The translations under genes were made by a program, and so were the position numbers. From positions 1-64,000 of the forward strand of contig CAMZCT010000001.1 in assembly GCA_947305065.1 (NCBI GenBank): a stretch of DNA of 64,000 nt, written 5' to 3'. Below, piece by piece: positions 34,263 to 52,043 of the stretch. The notes under the pieces were generated by a model that did not search any database, had not been told where the DNA came from, and was given only the letters and a program-made list of their open reading frames with translations. Within the stretch, counting starts at the first letter, position 1, and every line of letters starts with the position of its first letter. The stretch is from an uncultured Mycoplasmatota bacterium (GTDB lineage Bacteria; Bacillota_I; Bacilli_A; RF39; UBA660).

Positions 34263-35561
34263 TTATTTATATTTTAATATTTCTTTAACTTTAGCAATAT
34301 TTTTAAACGTTATCTCATATTCTTTACTACTAAACATATTCTTTATTTTAAAAGATTTATTATTAACTTCATCTTCACCTAAAACTATAACATAAGGGAT
34401 TTGTTCTTTATTAGCATAATCCATACTCTTTTTTAATTTCTTCTTATTCATTTCTAATTCAACATTATATCCTAGACTTCTTAATTTGTTAGCCAGTTTT
34501 AAACTATCTATTTCAGTATTCAAAGGAATTATAAAAATATCTATATTAGTTTCCTTATTTAAATCTTCACGATCTTTTAGTAAAGCGAAGATAGAAGTTA
34601 AGCCGAAGGAAATACCAATAGCGGGATAGAAATTACCATCATTTATAAATTCTGTAATCATTTTATCGTAACGGCCACCTCCCCCAATCGCCCCTGTTAA
34701 TTTACCATTTTTTTCATATACTTCAAAAACATTACCAGTATAATAGTATTGGCCACGAGCTAGAGAAGGTGTAAAAGTTGTATATTTAAGAAGATTTAAT
34801 TTTTTTAAATATTTAGTTAAATTATTTAATTCTGCTATTCCTTCTTTTAATAAAAGATTATCGGTCTTTTTAAATCTTTTGCTCATTTCGTTTAAATCTA
34901 ATTTAAAATATTCTAATAATTTTTCTATTTGTTTTTCATCTAGGCCAATTGAAGTAAATTCTTCAAACAAACCAGCTTCCGATAATTTATTTAATTTATC
35001 GATAATTGTTATAGTCGGAGAAATTAAACTTTCCTCAACACCGGCTTCAATAATTATTCCTGACATTAACTTACGAGAATTATATTTGATATCAATTGGT
35101 ATTTTCAACTTATTAAAAGCTGAAACATATAATGATATTAATTCAGCATCTATTAGTTCCCCGCTAATGCCCACAACATCTACATCACATTGGGTAAATT
35201 CTCTATCTCTTCCAACTTTGACGGGCCCATCTCTAAATACTTTATTTATTTCATATCTTTTAAATGGTAGTCTAATTTCATTTTTATTTAAGGCAATAAA
35301 TTTGGCAAAAGGGACTGTTAAATCATAACGTAGTCCCAATTGTCTATTACCTTGGTCTCTTAATTGATATATTTCTTTCAAGATATCATTTGCTTCATCA
35401 TACTTGCCAGCTAACATATCGAAATAACAAAGTATTGGTGTTTCAATAGGTTGATAACCATATTCTTCAAATGTTTCTTTTAATATATTATTTATATAAT
35501 TTCTTATTCTCTGTTCTTTAGGCAGGAAGTCATATCCTCCTTTAACATTTTGAATTAGCAT
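34263..35561 (-). CDS. hisS: Histidyl-tRNA synthetase
   Basis: This 432-residue class II enzyme charges tRNA-His. Features are the start IQNVKGGYDFLP, motif 2 RYEINKVFRDGPVKVGRDREFTQCDVD minus a few residues, the HisA segments SLARGQYYYTGNVFE and GAIGGGGRYDKMI, and the C-terminal anticodon-binding domain. It is the third gene of an operon that starts with a leader containing a His-rich ORF (37101-37169), so its regulation by charged tRNA-His is directly suggested. It overlaps the end of the preceding gene by 20 bases. Confidence 0.95.
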   Translation of the reverse strand: MLIQNVKGGYDFLPKEQRIRNYINNILKETFEEYGYQPIETPILCYFDMLAGKYDEANDILKEIYQLRDQGNRQLGLRYDLTVPFAKFIALNKNEIRLPFKRYEINKVFRDGPVKVGRDREFTQCDVDVVGISGELIDAELISLYVSAFNKLKIPIDIKYNSRKLMSGIIIEAGVEESLISPTITIIDKLNKLSEAGLFEEFTSIGLDEKQIEKLLEYFKLDLNEMSKRFKKTDNLLLKEGIAELNNLTKYLKKLNLLKYTTFTPSLARGQYYYTGNVFEVYEKNGKLTGAIGGGGRYDKMITEFINDGNFYPAIGISFGLTSIFALLKDREDLNKETNIDIFIIPLNTEIDSLKLANKLRSLGYNVELEMNKKKLKKSMDYANKEQIPYVIVLGEDEVNNKSFKIKNMFSSKEYEITFKNIAKVKEILKYK

Positions 35562-36090
35562 ATTTCTTCATCCCTTCTTTAACAGCTTTTTTCAAAGCTT
35601 CTTCTTCATCTTTAGCTTTAAGGCATTTTAATCTTTTACGATCATCAAAATATTTATTAGATAAGTTTTTCGCCCAACCACCAAATTTATCTATGACAAT
35701 AATTGGTATAGCTGCTTGATAAGCAATAGCCATCTCTGTTAAAGTTCCTGACCCTCCTGAAATAGCTATAATTACATCACAAGATAGTACAAGATTGAAT
35801 TCTCTTCCCCCACCAATTTCTAGTCCCGAATTTATTAAAACTGTTGGTCGATATTCGCCAAAAACATTTTTATCTTTACCGCCAGCAACTCCAACAGTAA
35901 AACCACCGTAATTAGTAGCGGCTTTAGCAGCTTCTGTTGATAAAGAAGTATAATCTTTTTCTGCGCCATAAACCAAAATATTATTTGATTTAGCAATTAA
36001 TTCACCTCATTTTTTAGCACAATTTAGTGCTTCTTCACTATATTTTAAATCGGTTGCTGATCCCATTATTCCTATTTGTAATTTTTTCAT
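35542..36090 (-). pseudogene. TIGR00725/LOG-like Rossmann protein gene with an in-frame TGA
   Basis: From ATG 36090 (overlapping the previous stop as ATGA) the frame reads MKKLQIGIMGSATDLKYSEE and so on to codon 27, then TGA at 36007-36009, then continues in frame with GELIAKSNNILVYGAE and the LSTEAAKAATNYGG, SCDVIIAISGGSGTLTE motifs of the TIGR00725/lysine-decarboxylase-like (LOG) family, to 35542. The whole is 183 codons, a normal family length. One mutation (for example TGG to TGA, a tryptophan codon) would explain it. A TTG-initiated fragment from 35976 is possible but lacks the Rossmann start. No TGA recoding is seen elsewhere. Confidence 0.7.
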
Positions 36091-36975
36091 ATCTTGCCCA
36101 GCTCCTTTTTTAAAGTTTTAACTACTTCTTCATTTTCATCCGTCTTAATTATTCTTTCTGGTAATTCATTCATTAAGGTTTTACCCTTTCTTAACTTATC
36201 TATTTCTTCCCATAGGAATATACTTCTACTTAGACAACCTTTAGAAAATGACTTTTCATATTCCTTAGGAATAGAAGCCCTTTCATACGGATCTCCATAA
36301 GGTTTAAAATAAGGAGCTTTTAAATAGCCTTTAGTAGTTTCTGTCATAATACCTGAACCAGCAATACCAAAGTAAAAATCCCTTTCACATATTTGATCTA
36401 TAACATCAGAATTCATTAAGTAATTAGTTTTAATTCCATATTTTATATTATTATTAAAATAATCATAGGACTTTTCGGTACAAATAGATGCTATTATCCC
36501 AATTACAGTAATTCCTAAATTTCTAAACTTTCTTATTATTTCAGCTAAAACAGTCCCCGAAAAGACCACATCATCAGCTAGGATAATTTGTTTACCTTTA
36601 ATACTATTAGCTATTCTAATAATTTGTTCATCTAATAATTCTTTACTTCTCGATATTATTTTATTTGTTCCTTCTACTCTAGTACAATCTAAAAAGTAAA
36701 TATTTGTTTCGTCCGGTACAATATATATTTTATCTAAAGTAACAATGGGGATATTCACCACCAATAAATTTATTTACTTCTAACATTTCTTCTTCGGAAA
36801 TTATTGTTACTTTATTATTAAAGATGCTATTAACATCTTTTTTAAAATAATTTCTAAGTGTATCTATAACACTCTTTCTAGGTATAAAAGCATATTGATA
36901 ATCATAAGCATTTATTCCATTTAATATTCTATTAATATCGTCACTAAAGACGATTCCTTCTTTAATCTCTTTCAT
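36087..36975 (-). pseudogene. Phosphoribosyltransferase-like gene with a frameshift
   Basis: Two frames overlap: 36730-36975 (MKEIKEGIVFSDD to FIGGEYPHCY) and 36087-36764 (from ...IPIVTLDKIYIV to the end). Removing one C from a run of four C (minus strand, 36747-36750) joins them into one frame reading GGEYPIVTLDKIY of about 295 residues. The second half has the PRPP-loop-like motif IILADDVVFSGTVLAEII typical of PRTases, and C-terminal acidic segments. First gene of the hisS operon, followed by ATGA overlap with the next gene. Homopolymer slip or sequencing error is likely; the substrate is unknown. Confidence 0.7.
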
Positions 36976-37005
36976 AATTTTCTCCTCAATTCTATTTTTT
37001 TATAA

Positions 37006-37040
37006 TAAAAAATGCTATACAAGTAGTACTTGTATAGCAT
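37006..37040 (-). terminator. Attenuator terminator of the hisS operon leader
   Basis: A perfect 12-bp stem (37012-37023 with 37029-37040), 5-base loop and T6 on the minus strand, 30 bases before the first operon gene's SD (TTGAGGAG). Confidence 0.85.
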
Positions 37041-37100
37041 AATAGGTCTATTTATAGCTAGATACAAGCACTACAAATAGCACTTGTTCCTACAACATTT

Positions 37101-37169
37101 TTAATGTCGTATTAACAAGTGCAGACTATTATGATGATGATTAAATTGTCTAATTAGTTTTTTAAACAT
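37101..37169 (-). CDS. His-rich leader peptide of the hisS operon
   Basis: ATG 37169 has a good SD (AAAGGGAG, 6 bases). The 22-residue peptide begins MFKKLIRQFNHHH; His is at codons 11, 12, 13, 17 and 22 (the last before TAA). Codons CAT-CAT-CAT, CAC and CAT lie just before and inside the P2 hairpin. His frequency (5 of 22) far exceeds chance, matching leader peptides such as HisL of E. coli. It is a regulatory peptide for operon attenuation, not a functional product in itself. Confidence 0.8.
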   Translation of the reverse strand: MFKKLIRQFNHHHNSLHLLIRH

Positions 37170-37194
37170 AATAATCTCCCTTTCAATTGCCAAA

Positions 37195-37223
37195 ATTATA
37201 ACACACGTTTTTTTATTTAGCAA
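37195..37223 (-). promoter_or_regulatory. Promoter of the hisS operon
   Basis: TTGCTA (37218-37223), 17-base spacer, TATAAT (37195-37200) on the minus strand. A short inverted repeat TAGCAAA/TTTGCTA (37218-37236) overlaps the -35 and could be an operator. Confidence 0.65.
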
Positions 37224-51161: not shown

Positions 51162-52043
51162 TTAATTGACATTAGCGTCATACCAATTCTCTAGTGCAGC
51201 TTTATCCATAGCACCTTCATAATCTGTAATTACTTCACCTTTTTTAATATTTAGTAAAGTTGGTGCTGCTTTGAACGCATAATAGTTACGTAATCTCTTT
51301 GTTTCTTCATTATTCATTCTAGAAATATTTAGTCTGATAGCTTTAGTATTATTAGCAACTAATACTTCATTTAATATTGGTTCAAAAGTTACACAATAGA
51401 AACAAGTATCACTAGATATTAAAACTAACATATTTTTTCCTTCTGCTACTTTTACTTCAAAATCATCGATGTTAGTATTAATAAGATTAGAGTAATCAGC
51501 ATCTTTAAATGATTTAGATGAAGAATCTTTTTCTTCTTTATCAACATTATATTCAATATTTTTATACTTAGAATCATCTATGTAGTTTTCTTCTAGAGTA
51601 TTTTGTTTGTTTATATTAACAACTACGTAAATTAAGCAGCCAATAACAATTAGAGCTATGGCAACTGTTAATCCTAGGATGATACTTTTATTTTCTTTAT
51701 CTAGTTTACCAATGTTTTCATATGAAGGTTCTTGAGTTTGATTTAGTTTTTTAACGGCTTCACTAAGATCAATTTTTTCTTCTTTGTTGAAAACATATGT
51801 TTTTTCTAATACTTCTTCTTTAGGTGTTACTTTAGTTTCAACTTTTTCTTCTACTACTTTTTTAGTATCTATCTTTTTAGCAGGAGCTTTTTTAGCAACA
51901 GTTTTTTTAGCTGGTGTCTTTTTTGGGACTGCTTTTTTAGTTGTAGTAGTTTTTTTAGCAGATACTTTTTTCGTTGTTGTTTTTTTAGTTGCTGCTACAC
52001 TCTTTTTCTTTGTATTTGATTTTTTCTTTTCCATAAATATCAC
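51162..52043 (-). CDS. Membrane-anchored thioredoxin with a lysine/alanine-rich tail
   Basis: Residues 5-70 are made of Lys/Ala/Thr/Pro repeats (VPKKTPAKKTVAKKAPAKK, then KKIDTKK), like eukaryotic histone H1 tails and some bacterial nucleoid proteins. A membrane helix lies at about 125-147. The thioredoxin fold follows (about 190-293) with redox motif SSDTCFYCVTF (CxxC = CFYC) and a conserved YYAFKAAPTLLN cis-proline. Topology implies a cytosolic basic tail and an extracytoplasmic disulfide or reductase domain. The tail may bind nucleic acid or acidic lipid; that is inference. Start ATG about 6 bases after a GGTGAT. Confidence 0.75.
   Translation of the reverse strand: MIFMEKKKSNTKKKSVAATKKTTTKKVSAKKTTTTKKAVPKKTPAKKTVAKKAPAKKIDTKKVVEEKVETKVTPKEEVLEKTYVFNKEEKIDLSEAVKKLNQTQEPSYENIGKLDKENKSIILGLTVAIALIVIGCLIYVVVNINKQNTLEENYIDDSKYKNIEYNVDKEEKDSSSKSFKDADYSNLINTNIDDFEVKVAEGKNMLVLISSDTCFYCVTFEPILNEVLVANNTKAIRLNISRMNNEETKRLRNYYAFKAAPTLLNIKKGEVITDYEGAMDKAALENWYDANVN

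Follow-up and report, generated by a model that had tools for sequence, protein, structure and literature searches.

Here we report that the leader preceding a three-gene operon of an uncultured Mycoplasmatota bacterium (GTDB lineage RF39; UBA660) is, judged from its sequence, very probably a ribosome-mediated transcription attenuator that switches the operon on when charged tRNA-His is scarce. The operon encodes, in order, a phosphoribosyltransferase (PRTase)-like protein, a protein of the SLOG/LDcluster4 family, and a histidyl-tRNA synthetase (HisRS), HisS2. It lies on the minus strand of the window, by which we mean the whole stretch analyzed, 64,000 nucleotides (nt) of contig CAMZCT010000001.1 (assembly GCA_947305065.1). 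In this leader and its relatives we observe a short open reading frame (ORF), sensor codons within it and their spacing from the downstream RNA segments, alternative pairings with covariation, the genes that follow, and a scarcity of the sensed residue in the proteins they encode.

An earlier note made from the window alone had described a 22-codon leader ORF with His codons at positions 11, 12, 13, 17, and 22, a good Shine-Dalgarno (SD) sequence, a 13-base antiterminator pairing, and a strong terminator. The ORF is exact on the minus strand, the SD sequence and the terminator are present (Table 1), and the antiterminator pairing consists of 9 + 4 bp with a 2-nt bulge. Two additional stems fared less well: the 3' halves of P3 (CUAUUUGUAG/CUAUAAAUAG) and of a long-range stem fall where the alignment between segments 3 and 4 is variable and gapped, which suggests that both are peculiar to this genome. 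For the 225-nt leader, the folding energy is -61.1 kcal/mol, compared with -35.2 +/- 4.0 kcal/mol for shuffled sequences (z -6.6; reached by 0 of 200 shuffles). A promoter-like sequence precedes the ORF, and relatives carry, by eye, TTGACA/TATAAT-like sequences at the same position. Upstream of the leader is an rpoC/tRNA-Ala region.

Searches with blastn among near relatives gave 11 strong leaders, that of the window included, from which a covariance model (R1) was built. R1 matched 48 of 386 genomes of the window's family and 34 of 150 genera. A second covariance model (R2) matched 38 of 385 genomes in a sample of the order, all of them of the window's family. A wide spread of the scaffold was not found: in a sample of the class, R2 matched one genome outside the family. 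In species genomes, an exact DNA pattern returned 95 stretches, mostly from metagenome-assembled genomes (MAGs) of gut Bacilli; about 88 are convincing leaders. Pattern matches in Bacteroidetes, an archaeon, and Chloroflexaceae included no convincing leader and were rejected as chance. The homologous leaders number about 85, nearly all from the window's own family of gut Bacilli, and the named relatives are uncultured gut Bacilli MAGs labeled variously as Bacilli, Erysipelotrichaceae, or Tenericutes. These relatives retain the leader ORF, its His codons, and the pairings.

The conserved core comprises five segments that pair with their neighbors either as 1:2 + 3:4 or as 2:3 + 4:5, segment 5 being the 3' half of the terminator; the antiterminator 3:4 and the terminator 4:5 are mutually exclusive. 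In both registers, 95% of cells are paired (58 leaders), and pairing falls to 14-53% when the registers are slid as a control. Changes on both sides of a pair occur in 13 of 17 pairs in 1:2 + 4:5 and in 10 of 17 in 2:3 + 4:5, values that none of 500 shuffles reached, and in 8 of the 9 counted pairs of the terminator 4:5. In two genomes (G003 and G006), G, C, and G in segments 1, 2, and 3 are replaced together by A, U, and A, and in a third (G039) joint changes run across segments 3, 4, and 5; such linked three-segment changes support both alternative pairings. Locus L126 has CTTAT/ATAAG/CTTAT in segments 1-3, with the same linked pattern on the core. The earlier note's proposal of a His-codon attenuator before a hisS operon was thus upheld by every comparative test put forward with it. 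The ORF and His codons are conserved in the alignment, the stems covary, and none of the findings named as contrary to the proposal (loss of the ORF or His codons in relatives, lack of compensatory changes, a T-box in the leader) was made.

In most His leaders the sensor codons lie 18, 15, and 12 nt before the CACTTGT of segment 1. The distances are 17, 14, and 11 nt in a His subtype with a changed downstream frame and, counted by hand, in leaders with mixed Trp/Arg/His codons; they are 18 and 15 nt in the Cys leader and 19, 16, and 13 nt in Arg leaders. The ribosome usually extends 12-13 nt from its A site to its front edge. This footprint and the codon spacing together imply that a ribosome with a sensor codon in its A site leaves segment 1 uncovered. 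In the window leader, a ribosome that has reached the stop codon sits over segment 1 and has its edge just short of segment 2.

Beyond what is observed, we infer ribosome stalling, a cotranscriptional folding order, termination, and the direction in which termination responds. Under His shortage, the ribosome would wait at His codons 11-13 with its front edge just short of segment 1. Segment 1, left free, would pair with segment 2, and segment 3, thereby released, would form the antiterminator 3:4, blocking the terminator so that RNA polymerase reads through. With plentiful His, the ribosome would reach the stop codon and cover segment 1, leaving segment 2 open to capture segment 3, upon which segments 4 and 5 would form the terminator. 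The polarity, which the earlier note had left open, can in this way be deduced: a stall at the HHH run favors the antiterminator, and a ribosome at the stop codon favors the terminator. Ribosome-masked folding, another check suggested there, was carried out on transcripts ending 12 nt past segment 3, before segment 4 emerges. It gave a clear answer for the window leader, with P(1:2) of 0.99, 1.00, and 0.68 for a ribosome stalled at the first, second, and third His codon of the run and P(2:3) of 1.00 for a ribosome at the stop codon. Of the 85 leaders folded, 78 formed 2:3 with the ribosome at the stop codon, a clear result; stalled ribosomes gave a mixed picture at equilibrium, as discussed below.

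One RNA scaffold is combined with several sensors. The genes behind His leaders are of the hisS2, PRTase, M20 type A, S51-like, GNAT-like, hisG, and His-racemase-like kinds; the S51-like and GNAT-like assignments are our own reading, with no Pfam match for either, and an S66 gene lies behind the S51-like gene. Arg leaders (NNRRR..) precede M20 type B peptidases, a Cys leader (MLLYRNTCCMKS..) found at a single locus precedes cysS, and WRH(I/M)GNTYT leaders, which contain Trp, Arg, and His codons, precede M20 peptidases. The scaffold carries Arg, Cys, or Trp/Arg/His codons at loci L121-L125, L128-L130, L133-L134, L158, L164, L169, L194, L245-L246, and L249-L256, where M20 peptidase genes, cysS, and further genes follow. 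Targets fit sensors, in that His leaders stand before hisS2, hisG, and His-racemase-like genes, the Cys leader before cysS, and Arg leaders before M20 genes, and this fit supports an attenuator. A weak model match at locus L257 (G463:C1), with the leader MYTNKTIMYTC ahead of an ABC-F-like ATPase gene, may represent another kind of attenuator.

The proteins encoded behind these leaders avoid the sensed residue. Composition was counted in the first genes of about 80 loci (L077-L257) and in window positions 34263-36975; these counts come from related proteins and hence are not independent. Background proteins of the same loci contain 1.55% His, 3.2% Arg, and 1.2% Cys. No residue is more depleted behind His leaders than His itself (log2 -3.4, equivalent to 10-fold): HisS2 proteins contain 0.03% His, with 22 of 24 lacking it altogether, HisG and His-racemase-like proteins contain none, and PRTase and GNAT proteins contain 0.06% each. 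Depletion is weaker in M20 type A proteins (0.85% His), as expected if catalytic His residues are retained. The operon of the window has 0 His in 871 amino acids (aa) against 13 expected, and canonical HisRS proteins have 2-5 His each. Behind Arg leaders, Arg is depleted 4-fold to 0.76% while His is normal at 1.7%, and the CysS protein behind the Cys leader contains 0.41% Cys. Trp is also low in both the His-leader and the Arg-leader sets.

Several observations weigh against an attenuator that opens upon His starvation. In masked folding, once segment 3 has emerged, 1:2 is retained at equilibrium in only 31 of 85 leaders with the ribosome at the first sensor codon and in 34 of 85 at the second. 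A window leader free of ribosomes would, unlike trp, form 1:2 and hence the antiterminator, and in the full-length window leader at equilibrium the 4:5 hairpin beats 3:4. The covariation shuffles do not fully correct for the relatedness of the leaders, and in three genomes (G038, G003, and G006) 3:4 uses bases just 3' of those in 2:3, so that adjacent rather than shared bases make mutual exclusion weaker there. Because fewer than half of the leaders hold 1:2 at equilibrium, the stalled state must in many of them rest on folding order, which would favor 1:2 given that segment 2 emerges ahead of segment 3. The decision between 3:4 and 4:5 must similarly be kinetic. Equilibrium folding of the full leader was rejected as a test of polarity, as the terminator wins in most states. 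The opposite polarity, in which stalling at the His codons would hide segment 1 beneath the ribosome, allow 2:3 to form, and so make starvation the cause of termination, would accommodate the stable and conserved 2:3 hairpin, the 54 of 85 leaders that prefer 2:3 in the thermodynamic model with a ribosome at the first His codon, and the position of the His 17 codon within segment 1. We nevertheless consider it improbable. The sensor run stops 12 nt short of segment 1 in most leaders, leaving that segment uncovered, and masking is complete only with the ribosome at the stop codon; segment 2 is transcribed ahead of segment 3; and targets such as a HisRS, hisG, and cysS are sensible as genes induced, not repressed, on starvation.

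Instead of the decoding of His codons, the signal could be an arrest peptide or the action of a small molecule on the growing peptide. Although the C-terminal LHLLIRH is nearly constant among His leaders and the WRH(I/M)GNTYT leaders resemble a conserved peptide, this explanation is highly improbable given that codons upstream of HHH vary freely, that the C terminus shifts frame (HHHNNRTC) while the RNA of segment 1 is unchanged, and that for three amino acids the sensor agrees both with the gene behind it and with the residue avoided. The strong terminator could in principle stop transcription coming from the upstream rpoC/tRNA-Ala region, with the ORF present by chance and no regulation involved; yet promoter, SD sequence, ORF, codon run, spacing, and alternative pairings are conserved in about 85 leaders, and these precede different genes in different contexts, which leaves a passive terminator with next to no probability. 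A T-box is the usual control of hisS in Firmicutes, and the genome of the window has 17 T-box matches, one of them upstream of the canonical hisS operon. In the leader, however, Rfam cmscan found neither a T-box nor His_leader (RF00514) at any useful threshold, its sole match being the upstream tRNA, and the TGGNACC motif is absent from both strands, in agreement with the earlier note. It is thus exceedingly unlikely that the leader is a T-box, or another tRNA- or metabolite-binding element that happens to contain an ORF.

Attenuators with His leaders had already been predicted in Firmicutes; to the earlier note, one in this lineage would have been new. Naville and Gautheret 2010 (PMC2965389) predicted that in bacilli a His leader peptide precedes hisS*, a hisS paralog, and hisZ, and His-leader attenuators were predicted in the B. 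cereus group, Peptostreptococcaceae, and Erysipelotrichales by Ashniev et al. 2022 (PMC9413887). By the descriptions in these papers, those systems resemble the one reported here in having a short His-rich leader ORF, terminator and antiterminator hairpins, and His genes downstream, as well as a canonical hisS under T-box control beside a paralog with a leader peptide. Here, too, a run of His codons lies in a leader ahead of hisS/hisZ/his genes of a Firmicute. The present leaders differ in their lineage, in their targets (PRTase, GNAT, M20, S51/S66, His-racemase-like, and hisG genes), and in that one RNA scaffold is also found with Arg, Cys, and Trp/Arg/His codons. In another family of Bacilli (f12), R2 detected HHH leaders before hisZ-like genes (E 3.1e-5 to 0.005), which we read as the kind described by Ashniev et al. 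2022. Four loci of that family (L248, L278, L279, and L280) combine HHH or HH leaders and a similar scaffold with hisZ-like genes behind; the HisZ proteins contain no His at L248, 5 at L278, and 3 at L279.

In the textbook model of the enterobacterial his operon, a stalled or a terminated ribosome chooses between B:C + D:E and C:D + E:F, pairings that map onto 1:2 + 3:4 and 2:3 + 4:5 of the present leaders. The window leader differs in sequence and peptide, gives no match to the enterobacterial model (RF00514), and lacks a segment A, so that strong termination would not be expected when the leader goes untranslated. The T-box (RF00230) resembles the proposed attenuator in that it senses tRNA charging and controls aminoacyl-tRNA synthetase genes of Firmicutes, and it is present elsewhere in the genome. 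It differs in binding tRNA directly, whereas the leader, with neither the T-box motif nor a model match, would depend on translation of codons. To our knowledge, what is new is the lineage, a single scaffold on which sensor codons are exchanged, several of the targets, how strongly the sensed residue is avoided, and the candidate frameshift site described below. Attenuation by amino-acid leaders in Firmicutes, so far a matter of a few his operons, would thereby widen to a mobile and modular device, in which one RNA scaffold with a fixed distance from codons to hairpin takes His, Arg, Cys, or mixed codons ahead of different genes. The controlled proteins avoid the sensed residue very strongly, even to the point of histidyl-tRNA synthetases free of histidine.

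The first gene of the operon is split into two overlapping frames. In 20 of 22 homologous genes, frame 0 reads NNY CCC CAT and meets a stop within a few codons; reading on in the +1 frame yields fused proteins of 292-319 aa that are collinear with two unsplit homologs, both of which have CCA ATT at this position. Substitutions peak at codon position 3 of frame 0 before the site and of frame +1 after it, and outside the site these genes use CCC for 10 of 156 Pro codons. A conserved slippery site thus joins two overlapping frames of one protein, and a +1 frameshift in the PRTase gene appears well supported by these comparisons. A pseudogene or assembly error was rejected because the same split at the same codon recurs in 20 genomes with frame-appropriate substitutions. 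An independent start of the second frame is unlikely, as the homolog at L088 has no ATG, GTG, or TTG between the last stop and the site. A model of the +1-frame part (AlphaFold, Foldseek; predicted local distance difference test, pLDDT, 85) shows a PRTase core and points to no specific enzyme, and the model of an unsplit homolog is poor (pLDDT 53); the models thus support only a predicted type I PRTase core.

The frameshift site of prfB (RF2) is AGGGGG-UAU-CUU-UGA. Several PRTase homologs share this layout as AGGAGG-UAU-CCC-CAU, with AGGAGG three bases upstream of CCC and a slow A-site codon next to a slippery P-site codon; the SD-like element is absent in some. In Listeria phages, +1 shifts at CCC_UGA have been described (PMC5009743). 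Unlike at the prfB and Listeria phage sites, the A-site codon of the PRTase genes is a sense codon, CAU for His. We hypothesize that the frameshift depends on histidine. In the sample of the family, each of the 10 clear PRTase homologs is preceded by a His leader. This His codon is not independent evidence, as CCC_C and the conserved Ile codon of the +1 frame together partly dictate CAU. Whether the operon would sense histidine twice, through the attenuator and through a slip at a hungry His codon (CCC_CAU) into the full-length PRTase frame, seems to us evenly balanced. If it does, the His-free products and this double control would make it a starvation-only operon, and the PRTase gene would be the first known case in nature of hungry-codon frameshifting that turns on a functional trans-frame product. 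According to a 2016 review, no examples were known of starvation-specific trans-frame proteins made by hungry-codon frameshifting (PMC5009743), and a search of later open-access papers gave none either. A shift at CCC_CAU upon His starvation would answer the question, raised in that review, of whether hungry-codon frameshifting ever serves to make a functional protein.

Table 1. Features of the leader and operon, with positions in the window
Feature	Position	Strand	Evidence or remark
Promoter-like sequence TTGCTA-17 nt-TATAAT, extended TG	37195..37223	-	Consensus scan
SD sequence of leader ORF, AAAGGGAG	37176..37183	-	Kept in alignment of relatives
Leader peptide ORF MFKKLIRQFNHHHNSLHLLIRH*, 22 codons	37101..37169	-	Exact ORF, homologs
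Sensor codons CAT CAT CAT (His 11-13)	37131..37139	-	18, 15, 12 nt 5' of CACTTGT in segment 1
Segment 1, GCACUUGU, within leader ORF; partner segment 2	37115..37122	-	Alignment, covariation
Segment 2, ACAAGUGC; partner segment 1 or 3	37080..37087	-	Covariation, triple change 1/2/3 in G003, G006
Segment 3, GUGCUUGUAUCUAGC; partner segment 2, or segment 4 (antiterminator)	37057..37071	-	Covariation
Segment 4, GCUAUACAAGUAC; partner segment 3 (antiterminator) or 5 (terminator)	37026..37038	-	Covariation
Intrinsic terminator hairpin (segments 4 + 5) and U tract	37006..37040	-	13-bp stem at 37040-37012
First gene, ORF1, 81 aa, N-terminal part of PRTase-like protein, frame 0	36730..36975	-	Homolog comparison
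Candidate +1 frameshift site TAT CCC CAT	36745..36753	-	Slippery CCC_C 36750-36747; A-site CAT 36747-36745
First gene, continuation in +1 frame, phosphoribosyl pyrophosphate (PRPP)-binding type I PRTase core	36087..36746	-	PF00156, AlphaFold, Foldseek
Second gene, SLOG/LDcluster4 family	35542..36090	-	Family match; private in-frame TGA
hisS2, paralogous histidyl-tRNA synthetase, 432 aa, 0 His	34263..35561	-	Nearest PRK12420

The earlier note was right that the operon ends in a HisRS gene; this gene is, however, a second, paralogous hisS2 (PRK12420-like), and its identification as the canonical hisS was rejected. The canonical hisS of the genome (contig G000:C7) follows an acetyltransferase-like gene behind a T-box; at this locus (L069, G000:C7:27500-32000) it overlaps the chloramphenicol-acetyltransferase-like gene downstream of the T-box. 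The SLOG gene contains an in-frame TGA (NCAKK*GEL) that is absent from 16 homologs, a candidate private nonsense mutation or assembly error. The genome is a fragmented assembly, 96.5% complete with 5.6% estimated contamination. No histidinol dehydrogenase was found in it, so judging from gene content the organism probably cannot synthesize histidine. Elsewhere in the window, a 293-aa ORF (51164-52043, minus strand) is also His-free, as are 7 of 235 background proteins of at least 280 aa.
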